This document shows positions 10,431 through 29,517 of a DNA stretch of 33,993 bases, piece after piece. Positions within the stretch are counted from its first letter, which is position 1. The number at the start of each line of letters is the position of its first letter. The notes under the pieces are model-generated. The model worked only from the letters and a program-made list of their open reading frames with translations. It had not been told where the DNA came from and searched no databases. This DNA comes from Candidatus Methylomirabilis sp. (GTDB lineage Bacteria > DYJV01), in assembly GCA_020722945.1 (NCBI GenBank), contig DYJV01000005.1:1-33993 (forward strand), written 5' to 3'. A program made the position numbers and the translations under genes.

Positions 10431-10442
10431 AAGGAGTTTCAA

Positions 10443-11129: not shown

Positions 11130-11163
11130 AGTATTACAAAATAAAAAGGAGGGGGGTGTAATA

Positions 11164-11481: not shown

Positions 11482-11505
11482 TATTAAGAATTTGTGTAAT
11501 TTTAA

Positions 11506-11524
11506 GATTGATATATTATCAATC
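11506..11524. promoter_or_regulatory. 19-base palindrome with FNR-like half sites
   Basis: GATTGATA-TAT-TATCAATC is a perfect inverted repeat. Its half-sites TTGAT/ATCAA are those of FNR-type regulators, but the spacing is five rather than four bases. It lies between atpE and its terminator, so it may be an operator or just a 3'-end hairpin. Confidence 0.3.
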
Positions 11525-11550
11525 AACTTTTGTTGCTGTTTTGTTTAGTA

Positions 11551-11577
11551 AAGAAGGGGGACATCCCCCTTCTTTTT
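11551..11577 (+). terminator. Rho-independent terminator after atpE
   Basis: A perfect ten-pair stem AAGAAGGGGG / CCCCCTTCTT with loop ACAT is followed by a T-run. It separates the atp F0 genes from the cytochrome gene. Confidence 0.9.
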
Positions 11578-11649
11578 AAGTATTAAATTAAAAATTTGAT
11601 ATTTAAAAATTAAGTTTTTTATTTAATATTTAAAAAAGGAGAGTATAAA

Positions 11650-12696
11650 ATGGGAAAGCTATTAAGTTTTTTATGGAGATTTAAATTTATTATCTATATT
11701 ATAGCTCTTATTGGAATAGGGTTTAGCATAGGAGCATTGGAAGCTACAATGGACTCCAAATTCTGTGGAGCATGCCACGAAATGGATCATGTTTACAATG
11801 CATGGTCACATTCAAGCCATGCAAATAGTGATGATGAGCATATGCGTGCAGGTTGTATGGATTGCCATGCAAAGCCGGGTTTGAAAGGTTTGCTTGCTGC
11901 AAAATTTGGCAATGGTTCTAAGTCTGCATATTACCATGTTGTATATATGTTTCACACTGACAAAGAGAAGATATATCAAAAGATAATTACAGAACATGCT
12001 CATGCTCCTCACGAAGCGTGTCTCAAATGTCATACCAAATTTCAGGAGACAGATAGGGCAAAATCTATATCTTTTCCTCACCATTCAAAAGATACAGAAT
12101 TTAGAGATGAAATGTGTAGCAAATGCCATCAGTATGTTGTTCATAGTCACAAAAAAGATGTAAGTTATGAACCTCCAAGGAAAAATGAAATTTGTCTAAA
12201 TTGCCACAAAAAAGAGGGGGTTGAAATAGATAGTTGTGAATCTTGCCATGCTGGTCAGGGTGAGATGGCTGAAGGTAAGGGTGCAAAAGATATAAAAGGT
12301 TCACAAGATTCTATGAAAGCTGCTGATGTAGGTTGCAAAGAGTGTCATACAAACTACAAAACCAATGATTACAAAGTTGTTGTTCAGTCTTGTGTAGATT
12401 GCCATGATGGAGATGAAAGTTATGGCAAGCCTGCAATAGAAGAGATGCAGAGTGAGTTAAAAGCAAAACTTCCTCTTCTATCAAAAGAGTTAATTGAGTT
12501 GGCTGAAGAGATAAAATTAGCAAGAAGAAATGGTAAAAATATTGATCAAGCACTCAAGTTATACGATAAGATAAAATTTAATTACAATTTTCTTTATGAT
12601 GATAAAAGTTTTGGAGTCCACAATCATGAATATTCAATGTCGATTCTTGGTGCTATAGAGAAAGATATAACTTCTTTAAGAAGTAGCATAAAATAG
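11650..12696 (+). CDS. Eight-heme NapC/NirT-family membrane cytochrome c
   Basis: The 348-residue protein has an N-terminal membrane anchor (about 12-32) and eight CxxCH heme sites starting at C39, C69, C124, C156, C182, C196, C229 and C248. The first site, CGACHEMD, has the methionine found in NapC/NrfH-type quinol dehydrogenases, and the first four hemes fit that family. Four more hemes (182-252) and a helical tail (about 270-345) extend the usual 180-200-residue form. It probably passes electrons from menaquinol to a periplasmic reductase, whose gene is not in the window. The gene has its own AAAGGAG site, terminators or hairpins on both sides, and the redox regulator Rex next to it. Confidence 0.88.
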   Translation: MGKLLSFLWRFKFIIYIIALIGIGFSIGALEATMDSKFCGACHEMDHVYNAWSHSSHANSDDEHMRAGCMDCHAKPGLKGLLAAKFGNGSKSAYYHVVYMFHTDKEKIYQKIITEHAHAPHEACLKCHTKFQETDRAKSISFPHHSKDTEFRDEMCSKCHQYVVHSHKKDVSYEPPRKNEICLNCHKKEGVEIDSCESCHAGQGEMAEGKGAKDIKGSQDSMKAADVGCKECHTNYKTNDYKVVVQSCVDCHDGDESYGKPAIEEMQSELKAKLPLLSKELIELAEEIKLARRNGKNIDQALKLYDKIKFNYNFLYDDKSFGVHNHEYSMSILGAIEKDITSLRSSIK

Positions 12697-12709
12697 AAAT
12701 ATCATATCT

Positions 12710-12735
12710 ATGGGGGGGGGTATGCTCCCTCTCAT
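12710..12735 (+). terminator. G-tract hairpin after the cytochrome gene
   Basis: A nine-base G run forms one arm of an 11-pair stem (A12710 with T12735) with loop TATG; three pairs are G-U. No strong T-run follows, so termination would be weak. It lies between the cytochrome gene and rex. Confidence 0.35.
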
Positions 12736-12759
12736 AAAATATTTTAAAGGTAGGTTAGT

Positions 12760-13431
12760 TTGAAAAAGTATCATTTGACCAAAATTCCTGAAGCAACTAT
12801 AAGAAGATTATCAATTTATATCAGATGTTTACAAAATCTTGAAAAACAGGGTGAACAGCTTGTTTCTTCAGAGGAGCTTGGAAATTCTTGCTGTGTCAAT
12901 TCAGCTCAGATAAGGAAAGATTTATCCTATTTTGGAGAGTTTGGGATTAGGGGTGTTGGTTACAATATCTCCCAACTAAAAAAAGCTATTAAGACCATCT
13001 TAGGTCTTAATAAAACATGGAATATTATATTAGTTGGAGCTGGAAATCTTGGGAGAGCACTTCTCAATTATCCAAGTTTTAAGAAGGATAGTTACAACTG
13101 GGTTGGAGCGTATGATGTTAATCCTGCTGTAATCAATACACAAATTTCTGGCATAACAGTTGAAGATTTTAATCTTCTTACCAAAGAGAAGATAGATATC
13201 CTTAAACCTGATTTTGCAGTTATTACTACTCCAGCAGAAGTTGCACAAGATGTTGCTGATAGATTAATTTCTTTTGGGATAGACTGTTTTCTTAATTTTT
13301 CACCTATAAAAATAAAAGTTAATTCTGAAAAGGGTGAGATAGCAAAAAATGTATTCTTAGTCACAGATTTTGATAATATTGCATTTACTTTATCAAAGAA
13401 GAGATTAAAGACTCATAAAATTAATATTTAA
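12760..13431 (+). CDS. rex: Redox-sensing transcriptional repressor Rex
   Basis: The 223-residue protein has the Rex build: an N-terminal winged helix with the recognition block NSAQIRKDLSYFGEFG (47-62), then a Rossmann domain with the dinucleotide motif VGAGNLGRALL (92-102) and a C-terminal swap helix. Rex senses the NADH/NAD+ ratio and represses respiratory and fermentative genes. The start is TTG, preceded by AAAGGTAGG. It is likely transcribed alone or by read-through from the cytochrome gene; no clear Rex operator was found around it. A cobalamin riboswitch begins about 50 bases after its stop. Confidence 0.95.
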   Translation: MKKYHLTKIPEATIRRLSIYIRCLQNLEKQGEQLVSSEELGNSCCVNSAQIRKDLSYFGEFGIRGVGYNISQLKKAIKTILGLNKTWNIILVGAGNLGRALLNYPSFKKDSYNWVGAYDVNPAVINTQISGITVEDFNLLTKEKIDILKPDFAVITTPAEVAQDVADRLISFGIDCFLNFSPIKIKVNSEKGEIAKNVFLVTDFDNIAFTLSKKRLKTHKINI

Positions 13432-13478
13432 AGTTTTTTTTAATTTATATTTTTTAAATAAAAGATTTATGTTTTTTC

Positions 13479-13674
13479 TTATTCAGGTTTAGGGAAGTGG
13501 GTAAATGCCCACCCTGTCCCCGCAGCCGTAAGTGAAGCCTTTTAATTTTTGTATTAAAAGGTAAAAATTGGACATTTGTCACTGATATTTTTGGTTTTAA
13601 GCTGAAATATTGGGAAGGCAAATCCAAAATCCAATTTTTGGTGACTTCACAAGGCGGAAAACCTGCCTGAATAA
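13479..13674 (+). ncRNA. Cobalamin riboswitch 1 (upstream of TonB receptor)
   Basis: The 5' half matches the cobalamin-riboswitch core closely: AGGGAAGTGGG, a short hairpin, then CTGTCCCCGCAGCCGTAAG. Next comes the CACTG ... TGGGAAGGC arm and a variant B12 box, AAGGCGGAAAACCTGCC. The closing stem P1 is perfect (TTATTCAGG 13479-13487 with CCTGAATAA 13666-13674). A side stem CCTTTTAAT/ATTAAAAGG is present. It should bind a cobalamin and turn down expression of the receptor and CobN-like genes. Downstream, a small hairpin (13683-13699) has a CGGGG loop complementary to CCCCG at 13518-13522, as expected for the kissing loop that couples ligand binding to expression. Confidence 0.93.
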
Positions 13675-13698
13675 ATTTAAAGCTCTCGGGGTAAAAGA

Positions 13699-13759
13699 GG
13701 ATGAAGTGGAATGCTTTATTCAATTCTTATCTTTCTTCTTATCATTTCACATCCTTTTT
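13699..13759 (+). terminator. Putative riboswitch-1 terminator hairpin
   Basis: GTGGAATG (13706-13713) pairs with CATTTCAC (13743-13750), extended by GGAT/ATCC across a bulge, followed by TTTTTCTCTTTT. A similar hairpin stands at the same place after riboswitch 2. It probably is the expression platform. The 29-base loop makes it imperfect. Confidence 0.4.
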
Positions 13760-14225
13760 CTCTTTTCCCAAAATTTTATTTTTTTCAAAAATTTAAGAAA
13801 GGAGGAGTCTTAAAGGTAGCAATTATACAATTTTAATTTTTAAAGTTGTGTGAGTATAGAGTTGGAGCACCTGAACCGATTGTATTAAATGCTGAATGCT
13901 GAATGATGAATGTTGAATTATGGATTGAGAATTGTAAATGTTGAATTATTTTTTCCCACTCAACAGCAATACCCAATAATAATTAATTGAGAATTGAGAA
14001 TGCTTAATTTCAATAACAATTAACTACTGTTTATCATCTTTCATTTTCTCTCTGTTTTTCTTTCACCTTCACTCTTTTACTTGATTTTCTGGTTTCTACT
14101 AAATATGCTCATAGAAATTAGAAGAGTATAGTTTGTCGTTATAATTTTAATTTTGAAATTGTATTACATCTAATTTAAAATGTATTTTTTAAATCTTTAA
14201 ATTACAATAAAAAAGGAGATAAAGG
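13760..14225. other. Long leader between riboswitch 1 and the receptor gene
   Basis: No gene is visible. An orphan strong ribosome site AAAGGAGGAG (13798-13807) has no start codon within reach. Two runs of degenerate heptamer repeats follow (annotated separately), then an AT-rich stretch up to the AAAGGAG site before the receptor start codon. Riboswitch 2 has no such spacer, so material seems to have been inserted or a short gene lost here. Confidence 0.5.
13888..14012. repeat. Degenerate heptamer repeats (AATGNTG / AATTGAG)
   Basis: From 13888 to 13950 nine consecutive 7-base units read AATGCTG, AATGCTG, AATGATG, AATGTTG, AATTATG, GATTGAG, AATTGTA, AATGTTG, AATTATT. A second run (13985-14012) has AATTGAG twice, then AATGCTT and AATTTCA. 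The exact 7-base phase across substitutions marks these as an eroding tandem repeat. Confidence 0.7.
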
Positions 14226-16151
14226 ATGAATAAATATACGATAATTAAAGTTTTTTTACCTATACTTTTTTTATTTCTATTTTCAGTAAATATATTTTCA
14301 GAAGAGCATATATCAAAGCTTGATTCAATACTTGTAACAGCAGAGAAAGCAGAGACCAAAGAGGAGGAAGTCACAAAATTTGCTACTATTGTTACAAGTG
14401 AAGAGCTCAAACAAACAGGTGCATACAACCTTGCTGAAGCATTAAGAAGAGTTGGCGGATTTGGTTATAAAGCTCTTAGTCCAACTGGGATTACACATGG
14501 TGGGATGAGTTCTGAATTAAATATAAGAGGGGTGTATGGGGGAGAGCTCGTGCTGATAAACGGTTTTCCTGTCCAACTTGCTTCAAGTAAAGCTTACGAC
14601 TTAGATATGTTGTCGATAGAGCAGATTGAAAGAGTTGAAGTTATTAAAGGAGCAGCATCAACACTTTATGGTGCTGATGCAATGTCGGGAGTTATCAATA
14701 TTATTACAAAAAAGAGTAGTGATAAATTAAACTTAAATTTATCTTCTATGCTTGGTGATTACCAATATAACAAAAACTCATTGGACCTCTCTTACAAAGG
14801 GATAGATGCAGGTTTTAGTAACAGTCACCTTGGAGATAGTATGCGTGCTTCTGAAAGCTTTACTAAAAAATATCACTACAATATAGATGATGAGAATAAC
14901 CGTAACTATCACATCTCATTGTTCCCACTGGAGGGACTTTCTTTAGATTTTATAGGAGCAGATGACAAAACAGCTTTTTTAAAAATAAATGAAGCTTCTG
15001 GTCCAAATTTACTCTCTGAAAGCGATCAAGAGCATCACAAATATTTCTTTGATACAAAGTATCAGTTTAAAGATTTTACTATTAAAGGATTTTACTATAA
15101 TGACTATCTAACCTTTGAAAAGATGGAGGAGACTTACAGTAAGAAGAAAAAAACTTGGGATAAAAAGTTTTCAAACACAATAAATAACTCAAAAAATTAT
15201 GGTGGAGAGCTAAATTATAAATTAAATATCTTTAAATCTGATATCCTTTTAGGTTCAGATCTTATTCACAGAAATGCTGATTACAGTCTACAATATGGTA
15301 AAAAGACAAGAGATGATTACTCTTTATTTTTACAAGTGAGGAGAAATTTTATTGATGCTTTAGGTATAGTTTTGGGGTTAAGGGAGCAGTATATAAATGG
15401 ACATCAGGGTGCAGATAACCAAAATATCTTTCTTCCATCTCTGGGAGGAAATTATAAATTATCAGAATCTATATATATCTTTGCCAATAGCAGTAAGGCA
15501 TTTAAAGCACCTACTTTTAACAACCTATACTACAGCAGTGATTTCTTAGTAGGGAATCCGAAGCTTGAGCCTGAATTGGGATGGACATACGATTTGGGAT
15601 TTAAATTTTATAAAGAGTATCTAAAATTAAAAACAGCTTTATTTTTTATGGATTATGAAGATAAGATAGAGCTTGATAAAACAAAAGGGTATCCTCAGAC
15701 ATACTATAATGCAAGTAATTACGAATCGAAAGGTCTTGAATGGGAGAGTGATATCAACCCTTTTTACGATTTTCAAAATATTATGAGAAATATATATTTT
15801 TCATTTTCAGGATTCTGGTGTGATCCTACTGCTGAAGATAGTAAGGGAGAAATTTATCAGATAGGACCAAAATTACAGTTTACTTTTTCAGCTTATTACG
15901 ATTCAGATATTTTTGATATTGCTCTATCTTATGTAACACTCTCTCATAGAGAGAAAAATTTAAGAGATAGTAATCTTTTTAATTTATCCTCTAAATTTAA
16001 ATTAACAAAACATTTTGATATATTTCTTGACATTGATAATATTTTTAATGATAAAGTTGATAATGCCGGAGATAGAGAGAGTAGTTTAAACAACTATGTT
16101 TACTACGGTATGGACAGGTTCTTTAAATTTGGGGTCAATTACAAATTTTAA
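14226..16151 (+). CDS. TonB-dependent outer-membrane receptor (BtuB/HmuR-like)
   Basis: The 641-residue protein has a signal peptide (1-25), a TonB-box region (SILVTAEK, about 35-42), a plug domain (about 50-160, with ELNIRGVYGGELVLINGFPV and EVIKGAASTLYGADAMSGVINIITKK) and a 22-strand-type beta-barrel ending in the outer-membrane terminal phenylalanine (NYKF). The block FKAPTFNNLYY ... GNPKLEPE is general for cobalamin, heme and siderophore receptors. Control by the upstream cobalamin riboswitch and the adjoining CobN-like gene favour a corrinoid as substrate, with heme or another metal tetrapyrrole as the alternative. A good AAAAAGGAG site precedes the ATG. The next gene begins 22 bases downstream. 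Confidence 0.92.
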   Translation: MNKYTIIKVFLPILFLFLFSVNIFSEEHISKLDSILVTAEKAETKEEEVTKFATIVTSEELKQTGAYNLAEALRRVGGFGYKALSPTGITHGGMSSELNIRGVYGGELVLINGFPVQLASSKAYDLDMLSIEQIERVEVIKGAASTLYGADAMSGVINIITKKSSDKLNLNLSSMLGDYQYNKNSLDLSYKGIDAGFSNSHLGDSMRASESFTKKYHYNIDDENNRNYHISLFPLEGLSLDFIGADDKTAFLKINEASGPNLLSESDQEHHKYFFDTKYQFKDFTIKGFYYNDYLTFEKMEETYSKKKKTWDKKFSNTINNSKNYGGELNYKLNIFKSDILLGSDLIHRNADYSLQYGKKTRDDYSLFLQVRRNFIDALGIVLGLREQYINGHQGADNQNIFLPSLGGNYKLSESIYIFANSSKAFKAPTFNNLYYSSDFLVGNPKLEPELGWTYDLGFKFYKEYLKLKTALFFMDYEDKIELDKTKGYPQTYYNASNYESKGLEWESDINPFYDFQNIMRNIYFSFSGFWCDPTAEDSKGEIYQIGPKLQFTFSAYYDSDIFDIALSYVTLSHREKNLRDSNLFNLSSKFKLTKHFDIFLDIDNIFNDKVDNAGDRESSLNNYVYYGMDRFFKFGVNYKF

Positions 16152-16173
16152 AAAATATTATTTGGAGTTGCTA

Positions 16174-19100
16174 ATGAAGAAAGTTATCTTTTTCTTGACC
16201 ATTGTTACAATTTTTCTCTTTACATATCCTCTTTTTGGGAAAGATAGTAAAATTGTATTTCTAATAGGACACTCAGCTTCTAAAAGTTTCTCTGATGCTT
16301 TACAATCTTTGGGGAAAGATGTAGAGTCAAAAGTTGAATTTATAACTGTTAAAGAGATAGAGAAGAGAGATTCTCTCCAATTTGATCAATCCACGATTCT
16401 CTTTGTTGATACAATGTATCCTCAAATAAAAAAAGTTCTTAAAAAAATAGGTAAAGAGAACAAAATCTACTCTTTGAGAGGGGCTTCTAAAAAGAGTTCT
16501 AAAGGGGGAAGTAGTGAGCTCCTTTATGATTCAGAGATAATAGCCTACTATGGTAATTTTACAGATAAAAATATTTTGAACCTTATCAGATACATACTCA
16601 ACAAAGAGGGGATTGTTTCTATGACTTATGAAGCTCCTACTCTGTTACCTGAAGTTTTCCTATCTTATCCCGGTAGCGGTAAGTTTTTTGATTCTTTTGA
16701 GGATTATGTAAAATGGTATAAAGATAATGGTTTATACAAAAGTAACTCTTTTTGGGTTGGGATAACTTACTATCGAGCAATGCTTGATAACGATTTTATA
16801 AAGCAATTTGTGAAAAGATTTGAAGATGCCGGGATAAATGTTGCAATAAGTTTCTCTTTTCCAGATTATCTTGGAGTGAAGAAATTTTTTGCCCCACAAA
16901 ATGTAAATTTTATTTTAGGTTTATCTTACAAATTTTCAGCTTCTGTCAATGATGAAAATTTTGACACATTAAAAAATCTAAATACTCCCGTTTATAATCT
17001 CATATCACTTTTTGATGCTTCAAAGGAGAGCTGGGAGCTTTCAGAGACAGGGCTTACTCCTTTTGAAGTTTCTTTTCAAATATCTCTTCCTGAAATGGGT
17101 GGGCTTATAGAGCCAACTGTAGTAGCCTCAAATGAGGAGATAAAAGACAATAGTAGCTCTAAAGTAGTTACATCAAGCAGAGAGATAGCTTATCAGGTAG
17201 ATTTTATCATCCAAAGAATCAAGAAGATGAGAGAGCTTCAGACAAAGAGTAACAAGGATAAGAAAATTGCGATATTTTACTATAATCATCACCCCGGTAA
17301 ACAGAATATAGGGGCAAGCTACCTTAATGTTATGGGCAGCCTTGGGGTGATTTTGTCAAAATTAAGGGAGAAAGGTTACGATATCCCAGAAAATTTTGAT
17401 GTAAAAGAGGAGAACCTCAAACAACTTATGCTTCTTTCAGGCAGGAATGTTGGGAATTATGCTCCTGGTGAGATTGAGGAGTTAGTTAAAACTGGAAAGG
17501 TTGAATTTCTACAAGTTGAGGATTACCTTAAAATGGTAGAGAGTTTTCCCCGCAACTTCATTAATCCTATTATGGAGAAGTGGGGTGATCCAAAAGAGAG
17601 CAAAATTATGTTTTATAATGGGAAATTTATTATCCCTATGGTAAAAATAAGTGATAAAGTTATTATCCTTCCTCAACCTTCAAGAGGGTGGGGAGAAGAT
17701 ATCGAAAAGATGTATCATGATGTAACTCTGCCCCCTCACCACCAGTATGTTGCTGTTTATATGTGGCTTAAAAATATTTTTAATGCAGATGCTTTTATAA
17801 ATCTTGGAACACATGGCACCCACGAATGGATGCCTGGAAAACAAGTAGGGACTATTTATTGGGATAATGGCGATTTTTTAGTTCAAGATATCCCTCTTTT
17901 ATATCCGTATGTTATGGATGATGTTGGGGAAGCTCTTCAGGCAAAGAGGCGAGGGCGAGGAGTTATTTTGAGCCATCTTACCCCTGCGATGAAGAAGGGG
18001 AGTCTTTTTGATAAATATTCTGAGCTTGGGGAGATTATCCAGCAGTATAACAGCTCTTTTGATAAAGATAAGAAATTAAAAGAGGAGAAGCTAAATAAAA
18101 TTAAGCGGATAGTAATTGATACAGGGTTATATAAAGATCTCAATCTAAAACTTACAGAAACCAAAGATATTGATATTGGTGAAGATGATATAGAAAATAT
18201 AGAACATTATCTTCTTGATATCAAACAGGAGGTTTTACCTTTTGGCCTTCACACTTATGGAAAGATAGATTTAAAAGAGGCAGAGGAGTTTGCAAAGTTA
18301 CTTTCTGAGAAACACTCTAATGATAAAGATTTCCTTAATAAATTAAAAATGAGTGCAAAAGATGAGATTGATAATCTTATAAATGGATTAAATGGTGGGT
18401 ATATTCCACCCGGAAAAGGTAATGATCCACTTAGAGCTCCTGATGCAATACCTACCGGCAAGAATTTGTATGCATTTGATTCAAGTAAAATTCCATCGGA
18501 AGAGGCTTACAATCTTGGAATTAAATTAGTTGAAGATAAATTAAAAAAGTATAAAGAGCAACATAGTGCTTCCCCTAAAAAAGTAGAAGTTATCTTGTGG
18601 TCAGTTGAAACTTGCAGAGATGAGGGGATTGGGATAAGTGAAGCTCTATACTATATGGGAATTAAACCTAAATGGGATTCAAAAGGTAAAGTTGTAGGGG
18701 TTGAAGCTATCCCTGGAAATATTTTAAAGAGGGGAAGGATAGATGTTCTACTCCAGACTTCTGGTCTTTTCAGAGATATGTTTCCAAATCTTATAAATCT
18801 TCTTGATGATGCTGTCAAACTTGCTAAAAATCAAACTGATGTTGAGAATTTTATAAGAGATAATTCAGCAAGATTAGAAAAATTGCTCATAGCTAAAGGT
18901 TACTCTAAAGAGGAGGCAGAAAATATTTCTGATATCAGAATATTTGGTGCACCACCCGGAGCTTATGGAACAATGGTTTCAGAGCTTACAGGGAATTCAG
19001 GGGTATGGGACAATGAAAGTAATATTGCTGAGGTTTATATAAATAGACTATCTTACGGTTTTTCAAGAAGCAGCTGGGGTAAACCACTGAAAGATGTTTT

Positions 19101-20049
19101 TAAAGAGAATCTTAAAGATGTTGATATTGTATCTCATACAATTTCAACAAATCTTTACGGAACTATGGATAATGATGATTTCTTCCAATACGCAGGTGGT
19201 GCTGTTCTTGCTGTGAGAAGTGTTACCGGCAAATCACCAGAGCTTTTTGTATCAAGAAGTGCAGACCCAAAAAATGTTTTTGCTGAAAATATCAGTAAAA
19301 CTGTCGGTAAAGAGTTTAGGATACGGTATACCAACCCTGAATGGATCAAGGGTATGATGAAAGATGGTTATGCTGGTGCAAGGGAGATGAGCAATTTTGT
19401 TGAGTATATGTGGGGATGGCAGGTTACAGTCCCTGATATAGTTGATTCTGCTAAATGGCAGGAGACTTTTGATGTTTATACTCAAGATAGATACAATCTT
19501 GGTATAAAAAAATTTTTTGAGAAAGATAATCCTTGGGCATATCAGTCTATCAATGCAAGGATGCTTGAAGCTGTTAGAAAGAGTTATTGGAAAGCTGACG
19601 AAGCTACAGTCAAAAAACTTTCTGTTGAATATGCATTAAATGTTATCAATCATGGTGTTGCATGTTGCGATCATACTTGCAACAACCCTATGCTTAATCA
19701 GATGGTTGTTAATATTATCTCACTTCCGGGAGTTATGAGTCCAGAGCTTGTTGAACAGTTTAAAGCCACCATTACAAAGGCAATTGGTAAACCTCTTGAC
19801 CAAGCTGTAAAAGATAGAGAGGAGTTGCTTGATAAATTGTCAAATATTGTGGAGGAGATGAAAAGTAAGAATGTTAATGGAAAAACTGATGCCAACAATG
19901 AAGTAAAAGGTTACGAAATGAAAGAGGAGACAAAGAAAGAGGATTCTCAAGCCACATCTTCAGGTGTCCAGTGGTATCTGATGATATTTGTTTTTGCAAT
20001 AATCTTCATAATATTTACAGGGATTATGAGGAGAAAAAAAGTTGACTAA
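16174..20049 (+). CDS. CobN-like chelatase, exported and membrane-anchored (HmuS-like)
   Basis: The 1291-residue protein belongs to the CobN / magnesium-chelatase-H family. It carries YYNHHPGKQNIG (about 372-383), the strongly conserved NLGTHGTHEWMPGK (about 543-556), CRDEGIGISEAL (about 814) and RIFGAPPGAYGTMVSEL (about 925). Unlike biosynthetic CobN it starts with a signal peptide (MKKVIFFLTIVTIFLF...) and ends with a single membrane helix and basic tail (about 1267-1291), so the catalytic body should lie in the periplasm. Near the end it has CCDHTC (C1164, C1165, H1167, C1169), a possible metal site. No CobS/CobT partners are nearby. This is the architecture I recall for HmuS of Bacteroidetes heme uptake, reported to act as a tetrapyrrole dechelatase. 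ATG 16174 was chosen because TTGGAG precedes it and the signal peptide starts there. Confidence 0.88.
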   Translation: MKKVIFFLTIVTIFLFTYPLFGKDSKIVFLIGHSASKSFSDALQSLGKDVESKVEFITVKEIEKRDSLQFDQSTILFVDTMYPQIKKVLKKIGKENKIYSLRGASKKSSKGGSSELLYDSEIIAYYGNFTDKNILNLIRYILNKEGIVSMTYEAPTLLPEVFLSYPGSGKFFDSFEDYVKWYKDNGLYKSNSFWVGITYYRAMLDNDFIKQFVKRFEDAGINVAISFSFPDYLGVKKFFAPQNVNFILGLSYKFSASVNDENFDTLKNLNTPVYNLISLFDASKESWELSETGLTPFEVSFQISLPEMGGLIEPTVVASNEEIKDNSSSKVVTSSREIAYQVDFIIQRIKKMRELQTKSNKDKKIAIFYYNHHPGKQNIGASYLNVMGSLGVILSKLREKGYDIPENFDVKEENLKQLMLLSGRNVGNYAPGEIEELVKTGKVEFLQVEDYLKMVESFPRNFINPIMEKWGDPKESKIMFYNGKFIIPMVKISDKVIILPQPSRGWGEDIEKMYHDVTLPPHHQYVAVYMWLKNIFNADAFINLGTHGTHEWMPGKQVGTIYWDNGDFLVQDIPLLYPYVMDDVGEALQAKRRGRGVILSHLTPAMKKGSLFDKYSELGEIIQQYNSSFDKDKKLKEEKLNKIKRIVIDTGLYKDLNLKLTETKDIDIGEDDIENIEHYLLDIKQEVLPFGLHTYGKIDLKEAEEFAKLLSEKHSNDKDFLNKLKMSAKDEIDNLINGLNGGYIPPGKGNDPLRAPDAIPTGKNLYAFDSSKIPSEEAYNLGIKLVEDKLKKYKEQHSASPKKVEVILWSVETCRDEGIGISEALYYMGIKPKWDSKGKVVGVEAIPGNILKRGRIDVLLQTSGLFRDMFPNLINLLDDAVKLAKNQTDVENFIRDNSARLEKLLIAKGYSKEEAENISDIRIFGAPPGAYGTMVSELTGNSGVWDNESNIAEVYINRLSYGFSRSSWGKPLKDVFKENLKDVDIVSHTISTNLYGTMDNDDFFQYAGGAVLAVRSVTGKSPELFVSRSADPKNVFAENISKTVGKEFRIRYTNPEWIKGMMKDGYAGAREMSNFVEYMWGWQVTVPDIVDSAKWQETFDVYTQDRYNLGIKKFFEKDNPWAYQSINARMLEAVRKSYWKADEATVKKLSVEYALNVINHGVACCDHTCNNPMLNQMVVNIISLPGVMSPELVEQFKATITKAIGKPLDQAVKDREELLDKLSNIVEEMKSKNVNGKTDANNEVKGYEMKEETKKEDSQATSSGVQWYLMIFVFAIIFIIFTGIMRRKKVD

Positions 20050-20077
20050 AATACTTTTTTTTGTTAAAAATATAAAC

Positions 20078-20096
20078 TACTCATAAGTAATGAGTA
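20078..20096. repeat. 7-5-7 palindrome after the CobN-like gene
   Basis: TACTCAT-AAGTA-ATGAGTA is a perfect inverted repeat between the CobN-like stop codon and the terminator. It could be an operator or a small RNA hairpin. Confidence 0.3.
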
Positions 20097-20100
20097 TTCC

Positions 20101-20145
20101 AAATGCCATGAAGGTTTTTCGATTCCCTTTGTGGCATTTTTTTTT
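20101..20145 (+). terminator. Strong rho-independent terminator after the CobN-like gene
   Basis: AAATGCCA pairs with TGGCATTT and the stem continues inward through TGAAGG/CCCTTTG with two G-U pairs (14 pairs in all), followed by a long T-run (20137-20145). It stands only 19 bases before the start codon of the next gene, leaving no room for a separate promoter. Confidence 0.88.
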
Positions 20146-20163
20146 GAAGTTGGTGAGGCTGAT

Positions 20164-21270
20164 TTGAAAAAGTTTCTCTTTTTAATTTTTATATTTATAT
20201 CAAGTAATCTTTATTCAGATAATATTGTTAGGCATAATGAAAAATCTGCTTTCTATGATGAAAAAGGAAAGCTTTACAAAATTGAAGAGGATTCCAATAA
20301 AGATGGGAAAATTGATATAATTAAGTTACTAAAAGATGGTGCTATTTATCAAGTTGTTCAGGATAAAGATTTTGATAATTTCTTTGAAACAACTATATTT
20401 ATGGATAAAGGGAAGGTTGTCAAAGTTACTTTAGACCTTAATAAAGACAAAAGTATTGATAAAGAGATACTTTATAAAGATGGATATGTTGAATCAGTTA
20501 AGATTGATGATAATTTTGATGGTAAGTTTGATAAATTTCAATATTTTGATGGTGATAAGATTGTAAAGCAGGTTGAAAAGGATAAAATTACATATTTTCT
20601 CCCTGACAACAGAAAGAGAGTTGTTCAAGGTGATAGCGAATTCTTCTACTTTAATGATACTATTATTAAGGCTGTTGTTTATAAAAATCGTAAAATATTC
20701 AGAACTGTTAATTTTAAAAATGGGATAAAAGATTCTGAAGAGATAGATGTAAATCTTGATGGAGTAGTAGATAGAAAATTAAATTACAAGAAGGGTGAGA
20801 TTTTTAAAGAGATTGTAGATTCTAATTTTGATGGTTTTTTTGAAGTAGCGATCTCTTATGAACATGGAAATATTGTAAAAGATGAAAAATATACAAAAAG
20901 TTGTAAATATCCTATTCAAGTCAAGATCGGTGAAACAATTTCTTTTGATTCCAATTGTAATGGAATATTTGAAAAGAGAGTTACTTCAAAGGGTGAGATA
21001 AAAGAGGTTGCTGTTGATAAGGACGAGGATAAAATATTAGATTCAATTTTGGAGTATAAAGGTAAAGAGCTTCTATCTTCAAAAGAGGACACAAATAAGG
21101 ATAATAAATTTGATTTATTTATCAAATATAAAGGTGGAAAAGTTATAAAAATTGAAAAGGATAGTAATTTTGACACTCAAATAGATATTGTCGAAATTTA
21201 TAAAGATGGAAAGCTTCTAACAAGAAAGAAAGATTTAGATTTTGATGGAAAGTTTGATTTTGAAGAGTAA
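20164..21270 (+). CDS. Exported protein of 24-residue DxNxDG repeats
   Basis: The 368-residue protein begins with a signal peptide (about 1-18, no lipobox). The mature part is a tandem array of calcium-loop-like motifs of the form DxNxDGxxD starting at residues 43, 67, 91, 115, 195, 219, 262, 285, 309, 333 and 357. Most are spaced exactly 24 residues apart and each is followed by a short strand such as YKDGKxxKI. The loops resemble dockerin, EF-hand or thrombospondin-type-3 Ca2+ sites, so Ca2+ binding in the periplasm or at the surface is likely. TTG 20164 was chosen because GGTGAGG precedes it and the signal peptide begins there; upstream codons lie in the terminator. It is followed after 36 bases by exbB. 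The role in the uptake module is unknown. Confidence 0.72.
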   Translation: MKKFLFLIFIFISSNLYSDNIVRHNEKSAFYDEKGKLYKIEEDSNKDGKIDIIKLLKDGAIYQVVQDKDFDNFFETTIFMDKGKVVKVTLDLNKDKSIDKEILYKDGYVESVKIDDNFDGKFDKFQYFDGDKIVKQVEKDKITYFLPDNRKRVVQGDSEFFYFNDTIIKAVVYKNRKIFRTVNFKNGIKDSEEIDVNLDGVVDRKLNYKKGEIFKEIVDSNFDGFFEVAISYEHGNIVKDEKYTKSCKYPIQVKIGETISFDSNCNGIFEKRVTSKGEIKEVAVDKDEDKILDSILEYKGKELLSSKEDTNKDNKFDLFIKYKGGKVIKIEKDSNFDTQIDIVEIYKDGKLLTRKKDLDFDGKFDFEE

Positions 21271-21306
21271 TTTTATACAACAAAATTTATTAGATAAGAG
21301 GTTATT

Positions 21307-21957
21307 ATGTTTGAATTAATTGTAAAATCTGGAATTTGTGGTTATTTGATAATTTTCTGCTCAATCTTGTCTCTTACTTTTATAATAGAGAGATTTATTG
21401 CTTTTAGAAAAATTAGGGTAAATGACCCTGAAATTTTTATTGAGATAATTGATTCATTAGAGAGTAATAAAATTGATAAATTACTCCCTAAAATTGAAAA
21501 ATCTAACTCACCTGTTGTAAAAGTGATCCATCAGATACTTACAAGGCATACAGGGAATGCCTCATGCTGTTTAAGTTCAAGAGAGTCGATAGAGAAGGGT
21601 ATCAATCATCTTTCTGAAAGGGAAGTCCGAGATATGGAGAAGAATTTGCCAATACTTTTGATAATAGGCCAGCTCTCGCCGTTGTTAGGTTTGCTTGGCA
21701 CAGTGCTTGGAATGATCAAGGCATTTATGGTTATTCAGGATCTGGGTGGGAAAGTTAATGCTCAGGCTCTTGCAGGAGGTATATGGGAAGCAATGCTCAC
21801 TACTGCAATGGGATTGTTTGTAGCAATACCTACGATGATTGCTTACAGCTATTTTGAAACACAGTTGGACAAGATGGTTGGTTTGATGAATGATATTGGT
21901 AATGAATTGATACACTCTTTTGAAAAATCAGGATACTTCAAACACAGTCATGATTAA
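21307..21957 (+). CDS. exbB: ExbB-like proton channel subunit
   Basis: The 216-residue MotA/TolQ/ExbB protein has three membrane helices (about 12-32, 112-135, 155-180) and the family block LPILLIIGQLSPLLGLLGTV followed by GMIKAF. With ExbD it forms the inner-membrane proton channel that energises TonB. An AAGAGG site precedes the ATG. It overlaps exbD, and the exbB-exbD-tonB order is classical. The TonB receptor is encoded 5 kb upstream on the same strand. Confidence 0.92.
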   Translation: MFELIVKSGICGYLIIFCSILSLTFIIERFIAFRKIRVNDPEIFIEIIDSLESNKIDKLLPKIEKSNSPVVKVIHQILTRHTGNASCCLSSRESIEKGINHLSEREVRDMEKNLPILLIIGQLSPLLGLLGTVLGMIKAFMVIQDLGGKVNAQALAGGIWEAMLTTAMGLFVAIPTMIAYSYFETQLDKMVGLMNDIGNELIHSFEKSGYFKHSHD

Positions 21958-22360
21958 TATAAAGAGCAACTTAAAAAATAAAAACGAGTTTCTTAACCTT
22001 ACTCCCCTGATTGATATTGTATTTCTTCTATTGATTTTTTTTATGGTTACTACCAATTTCATAGAAACAGATGGTGTTGACATAAAATTACCTGAAGCAA
22101 ATGCGAGAGCTGTTTTAGATACCGAAAATATTACAATTTATGTTACAAATGAAGATAAAATATATTTTAAAGGTAAATTTCTAACTCTTTCTGAATTAAA
22201 AGATAAACTCAAAGAGGATATTGCACTATCTCCAAACAAAATTGTAATCCTAAAATCTGATAAAAATGCAAAAGTTGATATTGCTGTAAAGATACTTGAT
22301 ATTGCAAAATCTTTGGGTGCTGATAAACTTGTTATTGCAACTAAAAGAGATGATAAATGA
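21950..22360 (+). CDS. exbD: ExbD-like proton channel subunit
   Basis: The 136-residue protein has one N-terminal membrane helix with the essential aspartate (D22 in LTPLIDIVFLLLIFFMV) and a periplasmic domain of the ExbD/TolR type. ATG 21950 overlaps the exbB stop by eight bases; a TTG 30 bases upstream would add a short tail inside exbB and seems less likely. Its stop overlaps the tonB start as ATGA. Confidence 0.92.
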   Translation: MINIKSNLKNKNEFLNLTPLIDIVFLLLIFFMVTTNFIETDGVDIKLPEANARAVLDTENITIYVTNEDKIYFKGKFLTLSELKDKLKEDIALSPNKIVILKSDKNAKVDIAVKILDIAKSLGADKLVIATKRDDK

Positions 22361-23097
22361 CGCTATCTTATTCAAGAAAGGAGAAAAACACTCTCTATAT
22401 TTTCCTCATCTCAACCATTATCCATTTTTTTATTTTTTTTATTTTCTTTAATGTTTATAAAAGTAAAGAGCCTGTCTCTAATCAAAACATTGTTGAGATA
22501 AATATTGCTGAGTATCAGAATGATGATTCTGTCTCCACTCCAACCGATGTAGGGGAGATAGATAGTGAGCTTGACACAAAAGATATTGACAAAATCAATC
22601 TTGAAGATATAAAACCTTTAAAACTCGATAAAGTTAAAGTTGAAAAGAGTAATTTAAAATTTTCAGATATAGGTGAAATCCCCTCTGACATTCCACTCAC
22701 ATACAATTTGGCGAATAGTAAAAGTGACAAAACAGAAAAAAAAGTTAGCAATATAGATAGTAAACCTCCTAAAGCTCCAAAAAATATAGATAGAAGCAGT
22801 GAACAAAATTATCTTACAAATTATCTTGGATCTGTGAGGAGTAAAATTGAGAAAAACAAAAATTATCCCCTTATAGCAAGAAAAATGGGTATAGAGGGGG
22901 TTGTTGGTGTAGAGTTTAAGATTTTCAGCAATGGGAAAGTCGAATTATTAAAGATTATTAAGAGTTCAGGGGCAAAATCTTTAGATCAAGCTGCATTTGA
23001 AGCAATTAAAAAATCTGAGCCTTTCCCACAATTCCCCGAACTTTTAAATAAAGAGAATTTAATGGTCAATTTATCAATTGTTTTTAAAATTGATTGA
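22357..23097 (+). CDS. tonB: TonB-like energy transducer
   Basis: The 246-residue protein has a cytoplasmic N-terminus, one membrane helix (about 14-32), a long charged periplasmic linker with few prolines and a C-terminal TonB domain (about 155-246). The domain carries NYPLIARKMGIEGVVGVEF, GKVELLKIIKSSG and LDQAAFEAIKKSEPFP. It couples the ExbB/ExbD channel to the plug of the receptor. Start and exbD stop overlap (ATGA). The -35 box of the next promoter overlaps its stop codon. Confidence 0.9.
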   Translation: MTLSYSRKEKNTLYIFLISTIIHFFIFFIFFNVYKSKEPVSNQNIVEINIAEYQNDDSVSTPTDVGEIDSELDTKDIDKINLEDIKPLKLDKVKVEKSNLKFSDIGEIPSDIPLTYNLANSKSDKTEKKVSNIDSKPPKAPKNIDRSSEQNYLTNYLGSVRSKIEKNKNYPLIARKMGIEGVVGVEFKIFSNGKVELLKIIKSSGAKSLDQAAFEAIKKSEPFPQFPELLNKENLMVNLSIVFKID

Positions 23098-23122
23098 CAT
23101 AAATAAAATTATTTAGTAATCA
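23094..23122 (+). promoter_or_regulatory. Candidate promoter for riboswitch-2 transcript
   Basis: TTGACA (23094-23099) overlaps the tonB stop codon. With a 17-base spacer the -10 is a weak TAATCA (23117-23122). The predicted start, about 23129, falls just before the first paired base of the riboswitch, which supports the position despite the poor -10. Confidence 0.4.
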
Positions 23123-23131
23123 ACTATTTAT

Positions 23132-23318
23132 ATTGTAGATTCAGGGAAGTGGGTAAATTCCCACCCTGTCCCCGCAGCCGTGAGTGAAGCCTTTTATAAA
23201 AAAGGTAAAAATTGGACATTTGTCACTGATATTTTTGGTTTTAAGCTGAAATATTGGGAAGGCAAATCTCAAAATCCAATTTTTGGTGACTTCACAAGGC
23301 GGAAAACCTGTCTACAAT
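23132..23318 (+). ncRNA. Cobalamin riboswitch 2 (upstream of DUF2162 operon)
   Basis: The core is almost base-for-base the same as riboswitch 1: AGGGAAGTGGG, CTGTCCCCGCAGCCGTGAG, CACTG ... TGGGAAGGC and AAGGCGGAAAACCTG. The closing stem differs completely in sequence yet pairs perfectly (ATTGTAGA 23132-23139 with TCTACAAT 23311-23318), and the side stem is shortened on both arms. Compensatory change of this kind shows the structure is under selection. The small CTCT-CGGGG-AGAG hairpin (23323-23338) is conserved too. It should control the three downstream genes in response to cobalamin. Confidence 0.93.
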
Positions 23319-23336
23319 TAAACTCTCGGGGATAAG

Positions 23337-23398
23337 AGGCAAAGTGAGAAGATACTCCTCTTCATCGATTCTCATTTAACCTATTTATCTCCTTTTTA
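23337..23398 (+). terminator. Putative riboswitch-2 terminator hairpin
   Basis: AGTGAGAA (23343-23350) pairs with TTCTCATT (23369-23376), extended by AGG/CCT, followed by a run of T at 23393-23397. It matches the hairpin after riboswitch 1 in position and design but not in sequence. It ends shortly before the AAAGGGG ribosome site of the DUF2162 gene. Confidence 0.4.
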
Positions 23399-23425
23399 TA
23401 CTTTAATGTTATAAAGGGGTTATTA

Positions 23426-24151
23426 ATGGAGATAAAATCTTTAATTCTTGGCATTGTTTTTACTCTGGGAATATTTGCTTTCAAATCAGGGATAGGTTTG
23501 AACTATCTTCTTTTTAGCAGAGATAAGGGTAAATTTTTTGTAATGCTTATAGGTATACTTTCATATTTCTTTATATTTGCAGCAAGCTACTTTATAATCA
23601 AACATATCAATATCCTTGATTATTTTCAGATTTTTGAAAATTTTCTCAAAACTGGAATAGTGGTCCACCTTACTCTTGCGATAGGTATGATCTTATGGGG
23701 TATTCATATCCTTACTAAGACAGAGCATACATCATTAGGTTATCTTCTCCTTCTAGTCCCATGCCCATTATGTTTTATAACTGTTTTTTTATGTTTATCC
23801 TTCCTTGTAAAGTTTACAGGTTCATACAGCTTTGCTGATACAATTTTATTTTATTCAGGTTTTCTTGGACTACAGATATTTACAATGATGATATTTAGAT
23901 TTTTTTCAAAAGTAGTTGATGTCAAAAATATTAATAATATACTTGGATATGGTCTTGTTGCAATGGGTTGTTATTTTATCGGTATTTTCTGTTTTGCCCC
24001 TGTTTTTGGTGATATTGATAAGATTTATAGAATGTCAAGTTATCTCAATAGTGGGTTGGCTATCAATCAAAATCAGGTTATTCTCTTAATTGGAGTTATT
24101 ACAATAATAGTATTAGGATTTATTACCTCAAGGCGTAGGATTTTTAAGTGA
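23426..24151 (+). CDS. DUF2162 family inner-membrane protein (putative transporter; HmuT-like)
   Basis: The 241-residue protein has six to seven membrane helices. A VPCPLC motif (C113 and C116) sits in the membrane and could bind a metal or act as a redox pair; the overall look recalls the CcdA/LysE-type transporters. I recognise it as a DUF2162-type protein, a family I recall in archaea and in Bacteroidetes hmu clusters beside CobN-like genes. As first gene after the riboswitch, and the only polytopic transporter-like protein in the module, it is the best candidate for moving the substrate or released metal across the inner membrane. It ends in a GTGA overlap with the next gene. Confidence 0.7.
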   Translation: MEIKSLILGIVFTLGIFAFKSGIGLNYLLFSRDKGKFFVMLIGILSYFFIFAASYFIIKHINILDYFQIFENFLKTGIVVHLTLAIGMILWGIHILTKTEHTSLGYLLLLVPCPLCFITVFLCLSFLVKFTGSYSFADTILFYSGFLGLQIFTMMIFRFFSKVVDVKNINNILGYGLVAMGCYFIGIFCFAPVFGDIDKIYRMSSYLNSGLAINQNQVILLIGVITIIVLGFITSRRRIFK

Positions 24152-24771
24152 ATTTTTCTGCTTTTATACAGACTATTTTATACATTGTCTCATCTTCTCT
24201 CCTTATACCTGTGATGGTTTTGCTGGTTTTTCTCCTTGTATGGATACTTTTTATAACAGGGATGATCTTTTCTGAATGGGTAGAGAGGAAAAGACTTAAC
24301 AAAATATCCAATACTAACCTCTTGATAGATGAGGTTAAATCAAAAAAAATGATTCCTTCAGATTTTGATCAATATTTTACACTAAATGTAAGACGTTACT
24401 TTAATAAATTAAACAAACTAATCGAAAATAGGGACGAGCTCCTCGAAATAAGGGTTGAGAATCTTATTCAGGAAAAAGAGTTAAAGATGCTAAAAGAGAG
24501 TGATAAAATCAAAATACTTATCCGTATAGGTCCAAGTCTTGGGCTAATGGGGACATTAATCCCTATGGGCACAGCTCTTGCCTCCATAAGCAAAGGTGAT
24601 CTCAACCAATTATCCTCAAACTTGGTAATTGCATTTACTACTACAGTTGTTGGATTGGGTCTGGGTATGCTCTCATATTTTTATAGTGTAATAAAGGAGA
24701 GGTGGGTTCAGGAGGATATGAAAAATATGGAAGTTCTGACAGAGACCTTCCTATCTTCATTAAAGAGATAA
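24148..24771 (+). CDS. Second MotA/TolQ/ExbB-family protein (HmuU-like)
   Basis: The 207-residue protein has three membrane helices (about 15-40, 125-148, 155-180) and the family block IRIGPSLGLMGTLIPMGTAL, the same place as the GLLGTVLGM block of ExbB. It starts with GTG overlapping the DUF2162 stop (GTGA). Together with the DUF2149 protein it may form a second proton-driven complex, distinct from the ExbBD-TonB set upstream. It is clearly a different subfamily from the exbB at 21307, with a shorter N-terminal part. Confidence 0.82.
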   Translation: MNFSAFIQTILYIVSSSLLIPVMVLLVFLLVWILFITGMIFSEWVERKRLNKISNTNLLIDEVKSKKMIPSDFDQYFTLNVRRYFNKLNKLIENRDELLEIRVENLIQEKELKMLKESDKIKILIRIGPSLGLMGTLIPMGTALASISKGDLNQLSSNLVIAFTTTVVGLGLGMLSYFYSVIKERWVQEDMKNMEVLTETFLSSLKR

Positions 24772-24810
24772 AATTATACCAAATTATATTCCACTACAAA
24801 AAAATAGTAT

Positions 24811-25155
24811 ATGAAACTACTCAAAAAGAGAAGAAATTTTTCAAAAGCACTCCATAGCCATTTTGAAGACCCTATAAGTGGACTTGCAAACCTTCTCGAT
24901 ATATATTTAGTCTTCATTGTAAGTCTTATCCTTGCCCTAATCAGTGTCTATCATCTAAACGATTTTTTTAATGAAAAAACAGAGATTACAATCAGCAAGA
25001 AGAGTGCAGATGGTAAAATTGAGATAATTACGAAGAAGGGTAAAGAGATAAAGGCTTTTAAAGTTACAGATAGTATTGGTAAGGGTGAAGGTGAAAAGTT
25101 AGGGACAGCTTACAAATTAAAAAATGGTAAAATGGTTTATATTCCTGATAACTAA
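24811..25155 (+). CDS. DUF2149 protein, ExbD-like single-helix subunit (HmuV-like)
   Basis: The 114-residue protein has a basic N-terminus, one membrane helix (about 27-48) and a small hydrophilic C-terminal domain. An aspartate (D30, in GLANLLDIYLVFIVSLILAL) sits at the start of the helix exactly as D22 does in ExbD (LTPLIDIVFLLLIFF), which suggests it is the ExbD/MotB-type partner of the preceding MotA/ExbB-like protein. I recognise the family as DUF2149. The ATG has no clear Shine-Dalgarno site. No terminator is visible before the pilus operon that begins 47 bases later. Confidence 0.75.
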   Translation: MKLLKKRRNFSKALHSHFEDPISGLANLLDIYLVFIVSLILALISVYHLNDFFNEKTEITISKKSADGKIEIITKKGKEIKAFKVTDSIGKGEGEKLGTAYKLKNGKMVYIPDN

Positions 25156-25202: not shown

Positions 25203-26696
25203 ATGTATATAGATTATTATAATTTTACAAAAGAGCCTTTCAACATCACACCTGATATAGATTTCTTTTACTGTTCCAAACATATTGAAGATATTCTTGA
25301 CCTGATAGAGTATCAGCTATCCAAAAGGAGAGGATTTATACTCCTTACCGGAGATGTTGGCACAGGTAAAACTCTTATCTCAAGAGTTTTACTTAATAAA
25401 CTTCAGAGATTCAATTCATCTCTCATACTTAATCCTTTTCTCAATTATGAAGAGTTGCTTTTCTATATCTGCAAAGATTTTGGTATAATCAACGATAATG
25501 AATCTGTCCAGAAGGGTCAGCTATTTCATCTTTTAGCTGAGTTTTTAATCAAAGAGTATAAACAAGGTAAAAATTGTATAATTATAGTTGATGAAGCACA
25601 AAATCTATCTTTTGAATCATTTGAAATGATACGACAGATATCCAATATTGAGCTTGAAGATACAAAGCTTGTTCAGATCTTATTTATTGGACAAACAGAG
25701 CTAATTGATAAGATAAATTCAACAGAGCTTAGACAGCTCAAACAGCGGATAAGCAGTATAGTTGAACTTACCCCCCTTGATATTGAAGACACCACAAATT
25801 ATATTCATTTTAGAACTCAAGAGGCTCTCAAGTATAAAAGATTTATATTTTCTGATAGTGCGATAAAAGCTATCTATTCATATACAAATGGTTCCCCCCG
25901 TGAAATTAACCAACTTTGCCATTCATCACTCATTATTGCTGCTTCTAATGACCACAAATCAGTTACCCAAGGTGATGTGGAGTATGCAGCCTCTGATTAT
26001 TACGGTAAATTTAATACTACCAAAAAATTTAATATAAGCAGATATATTTATTTAACTATTGTCATCCTAATTATTTTAATTGCTTTATCTTTTTACTACT
26101 CAACCTACCTTGCAAAACCATCAGCAGTGGAAAGTATAAAGATGAGTCCACGATCATCTTCTGTTATTCAGAGTTCTGATAATATTAGTGACAATACCAG
26201 CATTAATATTTCAGCAGAAAATTCTACCATTACTCCACAGGATAATATATCAGATAATGACTCTTTAGTGGAGCTTCCTTCATTAACAGATACTTCACCC
26301 ACCGATTCAACACTTACTGAAAAGAGCATTTCTAATAAAGTAGAGGATGATAATCTGACAAACTTTAAAAAAGGGGTAGAAATTATTGCACCATTTATTG
26401 ATAACTCTTCAGTAAAAAGTAAAGAGAAGAGAAACCAAGTTATTGCATCAAATCGCAATTTACCTGACAACATAACCAAACCTATGATGATTTTTATCTA
26501 TGCAGATAACAGCAACCAATTATCAGAACTCACAGACAAACTTAAACAGAATAGCATAGATTTTTATACCAGAAAAAAATCTGATGGTAGATTTGTTGTT
26601 TTTTTAGGGACATATAAAGTTGGTGAAAATATTAATAAAATGTTTCAAAAACTTGAAAAGCTTGGTATATATGGTGCACAACTTAAAGAGATGTAG
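25203..26696 (+). CDS. ExeA/MshM-like AAA ATPase with C-terminal SPOR-like domain
   Basis: The 497-residue protein starts with an ExeA/GspA-type ATPase domain: YYNFTKEPFNITPD, Walker A GDVGTGKT (50-57) and Walker B IIIVDEA (126-132). A membrane helix (about 279-302), a Ser/Thr/Asn-rich periplasmic linker and a C-terminal region (about 425-497) that resembles a peptidoglycan-binding SPOR domain follow. Such proteins help insert a secretin or pilus assembly complex through the cell wall. It heads a seven-gene operon in MSHA order and corresponds to MshM. The next gene starts four bases after its stop. Confidence 0.85.
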   Translation: MYIDYYNFTKEPFNITPDIDFFYCSKHIEDILDLIEYQLSKRRGFILLTGDVGTGKTLISRVLLNKLQRFNSSLILNPFLNYEELLFYICKDFGIINDNESVQKGQLFHLLAEFLIKEYKQGKNCIIIVDEAQNLSFESFEMIRQISNIELEDTKLVQILFIGQTELIDKINSTELRQLKQRISSIVELTPLDIEDTTNYIHFRTQEALKYKRFIFSDSAIKAIYSYTNGSPREINQLCHSSLIIAASNDHKSVTQGDVEYAASDYYGKFNTTKKFNISRYIYLTIVILIILIALSFYYSTYLAKPSAVESIKMSPRSSSVIQSSDNISDNTSINISAENSTITPQDNISDNDSLVELPSLTDTSPTDSTLTEKSISNKVEDDNLTNFKKGVEIIAPFIDNSSVKSKEKRNQVIASNRNLPDNITKPMMIFIYADNSNQLSELTDKLKQNSIDFYTRKKSDGRFVVFLGTYKVGENINKMFQKLEKLGIYGAQLKEM

Positions 26697-26699
26697 AGA

Positions 26700-29507: not shown

Positions 29508-29517
29508 TGGGGAAGAT

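Follow-up and report, generated by a model that had tools for sequence, protein, structure and literature searches.

The heme-type hmuYRSTUV locus of Bacteroidota comprises a TonB receptor, an exported and membrane-anchored CobN-like protein (HmuS), and the small membrane proteins HmuU (MotA/ExbB) and HmuV (DUF2149), the last two of which have been modelled as the motor of the receptor (PMC12583661). Hmu-like operons without HmuY that lie under a cobalamin riboswitch were described from B. fragilis in 2023 and suggested to serve cobalamin metabolism (PMC10100974). PMC6460266 attributes to Rodionov 2003 a third class of CobN relatives, BtuS, with a predicted role in metalloporphyrin salvage, and PMC8620254 repeats an earlier speculation on Chlorobaculum that cobalt is inserted into imported cobalamin. 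Here we analyse an operon of nine genes and two cobalamin riboswitches on contig DYJV01000005.1 of Candidatus Methylomirabilis sp. (assembly GCA_020722945.1, positions 1 to 33,993; this whole stretch of 33,993 nucleotides (nt) is referred to as the window). The original prediction for this locus, that no B12-controlled Hmu-like pathway had been described, is superseded by the three reports PMC10100974, PMC6460266 and PMC8620254. The operon and heme-type HmuRSTUV are sister systems. At the level of the system, we are confident that it handles corrinoids under B12 control rather than heme; with a confidence only slightly better than even, we favour a reading in which it acquires and processes corrinoids around BtuS, its exported CobN-like protein, with an inner-membrane unit coupled to the proton-motive force.

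All components listed above for the Bacteroidota locus recur in the window except HmuY. No open reading frame (ORF) of the operon fits this protein, all of them being assigned to other families apart from one exported repeat protein. The operon further differs from hmuYRSTUV in its B12 riboswitches, in the Asp and Gln that replace His1209 and Glu1212 of HmuS, in the lack of His254, in a DUF2162 protein with a PCPxC motif at the place of HmuT, in its own ExbB-ExbD-TonB, and in the CbiZ or CbiK of its relatives. With the operon of B. fragilis NCTC 9343, it shares the exported CobN-like protein, the lack of HmuY and the cobalamin riboswitch (PMC10100974). The CobN gene of Chlorobium and Chlorobaculum likewise adjoins corrinoid transport genes (cobalamin TonB receptor), but genes for BchH/BchI/BchD, with its ATP motor, lie alongside and no DUF2162/DUF2149 module was reported (PMC8620254).

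According to the ORF list, Pfam and Rfam, all nine genes and both riboswitches lie on the + strand (Table 1). The original prediction had read the order as riboswitch, TonB receptor, CobN-like protein, repeat protein, exbB-exbD-tonB, riboswitch, DUF2162, MotA/ExbB and DUF2149, with a TonB motor of its own, and every element was recovered in this arrangement; both predicted riboswitches exceeded the RF00174 gathering score of 31.5 bits in a covariance-model search. The three core blocks of the two copies are 93-100% identical and the flanks differ. Their P1 stems differ in sequence, yet all 8 compared pairs still form: between copy 1 and copy 2, both bases differ in 5 of them, and in no pair does just one base differ. 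As the stems diverge by two-sided changes and still pair, both copies look functional, and they resemble functional duplicates of one switch. In general, riboswitches of this family permit expression when cellular cobalamin is low. No Fur box was found in the window with up to 3 mismatches to a delta-proteobacterial consensus, which may not be the host's own motif.

The assembly contains four cobalamin riboswitches in total. Another of them heads an operon on the minus strand (locus L015, 5228-8846), in which a second TonB receptor gene precedes one for CbiK (PF06180, 258 bits), here in an exported form of this class II chelatase that bears a signal peptide. The top-scoring cobalamin riboswitch of the genome (103.6 bits; locus L014, 4296-4474, +) is followed on its 3' side by a small ORF only (86 amino acids, 4716-4976) and then by a gene for an HflX-like GTPase at 5335.

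BtuS is the sole PF02514 protein of the assembly. Its ORF is open from 16096, and the start at 16174 gives a signal peptide; by inspection, the protein also carries a C-terminal hydrophobic membrane helix. The closest PDB matches were HmuS 9d26 (501 bits), CobN (388) and ChlH (375). A tree built from 49 rows grouped the exported proteins together (support 100) and separated them from CobN, ChlH and the cytosolic CobN of archaea, in line with the original prediction, which had set the protein apart from cytoplasmic CobN. Within this exported clade, 9d26 and the proteins of three Bacteroidota loci made up a heme branch (support 100), next to a BtuS branch of 41 rows including the window protein (support 92); the tree comes from one quick search under a simple model with reference rows assembled from printed alignments, and its deep branch order needs caution. 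A simple hydropathy rule detected an N-terminal hydrophobic stretch in 38 and a C-terminal one in 41 of the 43 long rows.

The residues proposed for metal handling separate the two branches. For HmuS, His538 and His1209 were proposed to handle the metal, with Glu1212 as support and His254 as heme ligand (PMC12583661). His538 was found in all rows, and the window BtuS retains the His of the GTHG motif. At the positions of His1209 and Glu1212, it has Asp and Gln (TMDNDDFFQYAGG), and a Tyr at 254, whereas all three HmuS residues are kept in 9d26 and in the Bacteroidota loci L108-L110. In the Desulfobacterota rows, position 1209 is Asp wherever the column is present, 1212 is usually Gln, and 254 is never His. 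The same Asp and Gln occur in the DDxxQ motif of two cytoplasmic CobN proteins (PDB 7c6o, 9uk9). These share the PF02514 fold with BtuS, but they are soluble and driven by CobS-CobT, whereas BtuS is exported, anchored and outside the CobN branch. No ATPase partner was found among the operon genes, the part of the genome to which this check applied. Since BtuS belongs to the exported clade with HmuS and yet has Asp and Gln in place of His1209 and Glu1212, it combines the architecture of HmuS with a CobN-type site.

Insertion of cobalt into corrin by CobN is established, and we infer that the CobN-type site would make BtuS insert cobalt into corrin as well. Overall, we consider insertion of metal by BtuS somewhat more probable than removal. 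The reverse direction is a rival reading: in the same corrinoid operon, BtuS would strip cobalt or another metal, and DUF2162 would carry the metal inward for de novo synthesis started by CbiK. Such stripping, which the original prediction had named as a possible activity, would match the iron removal by the sister protein HmuS (PMC12583661). Cobalt supply would be useful to the 12 of 14 tested module-bearing genomes that have CbiD, CbiK is present in 10 of 45 operons, and the PCPxC motif of DUF2162 is invariant. However, the His/Glu pair proposed for heme iron removal is swapped for the Asp/Gln of cobalt-inserting CobN, and the companion CbiZ preserves the ring for salvage. Removal of cobalt from an intact corrin is, moreover, chemically very hard. 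We regard stripping as improbable.

The operon is a member of a recurrent type found across sulfate-reducer-type bacteria. With DUF2149 (PF09919, scored above cut-off) as survey marker, hits were obtained in 42 of 395 genomes of Desulfobacterota (the phylum of Desulfothermus), in 3 of 395 from the phylum to which Chitinophaga belongs and in 5 of 386 bacterial genomes from across families. The survey rests on this genome-wide marker search; a contig scan with two peptide patterns alone gave 7 loci. In the test of co-occurrence with cobalamin riboswitches that the original prediction had asked for, at least 26 of 46 DUF2149 loci, a lower bound as many contigs are short, had a same-strand riboswitch within 10 kb upstream, compared to 0.34 expected under uniform placement. 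These loci come from related genomes and are hence non-independent, yet those with a riboswitch fall in several deep branches of the tree.

Using profiles from the window and its relatives, we annotated 48 loci, 45 of them D-type and 3 heme-type. The usual order is riboswitch, TonB receptor, DUF2162, MotA/ExbB and DUF2149, followed by BtuF-CbiZ and BtuS in either sequence, and CbiK or ExbB-ExbD-TonB closes the module in some relatives. A riboswitch was annotated in 29 of the D-type loci, CbiZ in 22 and CbiK in 10, with at least one of these corrinoid markers in 35, whereas none of the 3 heme-type loci has any. Pfam confirmed exported CbiZ or BtuF-CbiZ, BtuF and CbiK in example loci. Most CbiZ proteins of related loci begin with a signal-like sequence, and for this reason CbiZ probably acts outside the cytoplasm. 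An order-level relative (G001) and the unrelated G261 both have the order riboswitch-receptor-CbiZ-DUF2162-MotA-DUF2149-BtuS, and locus L077 shows the same two-riboswitch layout as the window. The riboswitches, together with CbiZ, BtuF or CbiK in relatives, thus support the proposed re-tasking of a Hmu-like system to corrinoids. In Desulfothermus (L034), the riboswitch lies 3' of BtuS and 5' of a receptor; it is linked to BtuS yet may not control it. An apparent DUF2149-BtuF-CbiZ fusion in locus L106 spans a run of N and was set aside as a scaffold artefact. In several Desulfobacterota (L096, L098, L091 and L092), cobalamin riboswitches stand in tandem 5' of the module, separated by a few hundred bases in genomes G1037, G1124 and G1025 and by 1.4 kb in G1135.

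Corrin auxotrophy was rejected as the reason for import, considering that CbiD is encoded in 12 of the 14 module-bearing genomes tested, among them that of the window. The window's organism probably uses the system for salvage or cobalt economy.

Three small membrane proteins accompany BtuS. The PCPxC motif is present in 37 of 37 DUF2162 rows, Thr136 of the second MotA/ExbB protein in 44 of 44, and Asn27 and the membrane Asp30 of DUF2149 in 43 of 43; the position of Asp30 was equated with that of the membrane Asp of ExbD by eye. The relation of these proteins to HmuT, HmuU and HmuV, as originally proposed, held for two of the three. MotA/ExbB and DUF2149 profiles, derived from the window together with two relatives, matched both genes in the heme-type loci L108-L110, and the PF09919 search picks out the same genomes. 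In contrast, HmuT of the heme-type loci gave no Pfam DUF2162 (PF09930) match at an E value of 5 and no HMMER match and lacks PCPxC, while the profile-profile probability was 68%. DUF2162 is thus a positional counterpart of HmuT and a possible homologue. AlphaFold models of DUF2162 (2 sequences, predicted local distance difference test (pLDDT) 46.9) and DUF2149 (4 sequences, pLDDT 60.4) were not good enough to look for similar folds.

The presence of two motors raises the question of what the second one drives. A complete separate ExbB-ExbD-TonB is encoded in the window and in five other loci. Methanosarcina is an archaeon without an outer membrane, and Methanosarcina sp. KYL-1 (L115) encodes DUF2162-MotA-DUF2149 followed by an exported BtuS. 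For a related strain, this contradicts a report that BtuS of Methanosarcina lacks the operon (PMC10846266). DUF2149 also scored in Methanosarcina acetivorans. The cytosolic CobN of Methanosarcina (L036, 7026-13537) adjoins an AAA+/VWA fusion ATPase of the ChlI/ChlD type; its active-site motif, GCCCYFGTHGG, is cysteine-rich and unlike those of all other classes. Because a separate TonB motor is present in the window and the four-gene set occurs in Methanosarcina, the ExbB/DUF2149 pair may energise the exported chelatase rather than the receptor, a suggestion to which we give a little less than even weight. A wider proposal, that the proton-motive force drives both BtuS and HmuS, that MotA/ExbB-DUF2149 replaces the ATP motor, that corrinoids are metallated outside and that the role of HmuTUV has been misassigned, is more tentative still.

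According to the published model for HmuUV of B. theta (PMC12583661, PMC10100974), the pair would only energise the TonB receptor, and the operon would be an ordinary importer with an accessory chelatase. The resemblance of the pair to ExbB/ExbD agrees with this; we consider the reading unlikely. It is at odds with the full motor encoded separately in six loci including the window, with the Methanosarcina locus, and with the company that BtuS keeps: where contigs are complete enough, it accompanies the MotA/DUF2149 pair in 42 of the 45 D-type loci.

In the corrinoid-processing reading that we favour, low cellular cobalamin would let the operon be expressed through its riboswitches, and its own ExbB-ExbD-TonB would drive the TonB receptor, so that corrinoids enter the periplasm. 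There, BtuS, anchored at the outer face of the inner membrane, would bind the corrin and handle its metal, most likely inserting or exchanging cobalt in metal-free or wrongly metallated corrinoids, as its CobN-type residues suggest, though the direction is uncertain. In many relatives, an exported BtuF-CbiZ would trim the side chain in the same compartment. DUF2162, MotA/ExbB and DUF2149 would form an inner-membrane unit with BtuS, in which the ExbB/ExbD-like pair may couple the proton-motive force to the chelatase. It would thereby replace the ATP motor CobS-CobT or ChlI-ChlD, which cannot work outside the cytoplasm. DUF2162 might pass metal or electrons via the cysteine pair of PCPxC.

Several points weigh against this reading. 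The operon itself contains no CbiZ, BtuF or BtuCD, and 10 of the 45 D-type loci show no corrinoid marker, in part owing to contig ends. To judge from its CbiD and CbiET-like genes, the window's organism probably makes corrin itself. In Chitinophaga japonensis, an exported D-type BtuS occurs although the genome gave no hit to DUF2149, and in one Methanosarcinales genome MotA-DUF2149 has no BtuS in its vicinity; owing to these exceptions, the coupling of motor and chelatase is not strict. Dechelation by HmuS in B. theta lysate required NADH, not ATP (PMC12583661), and HmuS activity in vitro was seen without partners supplied in defined form. Finally, the function of D-type BtuS is a prediction from sequence.

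Two further explanations are very unlikely. In the first, the operon would import cobalt (or nickel), as ions or bound in small chelates, instead of corrinoids, and BtuS would handle metal. This would fit the PCPxC motif and the observations that cobalt transporters are commonly under B12 riboswitches and that cobalt-specific TonB receptors have been proposed (PMC7689651), but it is opposed by the corrinoid-specific BtuF and CbiZ domains that accompany BtuS at 22 of 45 loci and by the fact that the top named model of the receptor is that of the B12 receptor family (TonB-B12, TIGR01779), though at 133 bits it remains below the model cut-off. The second is a heme-iron Hmu system merely placed under B12 control: no solved structure is closer to BtuS than HmuS, which is likewise exported and anchored, and B. 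fragilis btuS1 btuS2 double mutants grow poorly on heme (PMC6460266), but the window BtuS lacks all three HmuS residues, the operon has neither HmuY nor a match to the delta-proteobacterial Fur consensus, relatives have CbiZ/CbiK neighbours, and a DUF2162 protein stands at the place of HmuT.

Table 1 Features of the corrinoid-type operon, with positions in the window
Feature	Position	Strand	Evidence or context
Cobalamin riboswitch 1	13468..13684	+	RF00174, 57.8 bits, E 5e-12; 5' of TonB receptor
P1 stem of riboswitch 1	13479-13487 with 13666-13674	+	P1 comparison
TonB-dependent outer-membrane receptor, signal peptide	14226..16151	+	PF00593/PF07715
BtuS, exported CobN/HmuS-type class I chelatase	16174..20049	+	PF02514, E 3e-285
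Exported repeat protein, DxNxDGxxD-like acidic loops	20131..21270	+	No family
ExbB/TolQ-type canonical TonB motor subunit	21307..21957	+	PF01618, E 1e-30
ExbD/TolR-type motor subunit	21920..22360	+	PF02472, E 3e-31
TonB	22357..23097	+	PF03544, E 2e-17
Cobalamin riboswitch 2	23120..23329	+	RF00174, 54.4 bits, E 5e-11; 5' of DUF2162 triad
P1 stem of riboswitch 2	23132-23139 with 23311-23318	+	P1 comparison
DUF2162 multi-helix membrane protein, PCPxC motif, HmuT position	23426..24151	+	PF09930, E 6e-27
Second MotA/ExbB-type motor protein, HmuU-like	24148..24771	+	PF01618
DUF2149, small ExbD-like protein, HmuV-like	24811..25155	+	PF09919, E 1e-29

The exported repeat protein between BtuS and exbB was absent from all related loci searched. 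Riboswitch 1 is separated from the receptor gene by an AT-rich and, at ~540 nt, unusually long leader (13685-14225). On the 5' side of the operon (10026-13431) lie genes for an ATP synthase c subunit, a NapC/NirT multiheme cytochrome and a Rex-type (CoA-binding, redox) regulator. Immediately 3' and on the same strand (25203-31252) is a pilus/secretin-type assembly cluster with an AAA ATPase (PEP-CTERM/MshM-like), a tetratricopeptide repeat (TPR) protein, a PilM-like protein, two small membrane proteins and a secretin.

In the open-access papers searched on the B. fragilis operon and on BtuS, which cover Bacteroidota, no link to exported CbiZ, the residue split or the second motor was found. 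No open-access full text was found on DUF2162, and none linking DUF2149 to B12, which as a search of open access only is weak evidence. As far as searched, the distribution in Desulfobacterota, the exported CbiZ link, the residue split and the evidence that the pair serves the chelatase are new by this literature.

Corrinoid salvage is thought to be cytoplasmic, following import by BtuFCD. A CobN-type chelatase, often together with CbiZ, outside the inner membrane implies that remodelling or remetallation of corrinoids would precede their entry into the cell. By the residue split, heme-type and corrinoid-type operons in metagenomes can be distinguished with a simple rule, and proteins labelled 'cobaltochelatase subunit CobN' in databases and 'unassignable' in recent work would gain a concrete, testable class of substrates. 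The two-motor layout and the archaeal copies call the published role of HmuU/HmuV into question, and the operon suggests possible roles for the unexplained small membrane genes of BtuS and Hmu systems alike.

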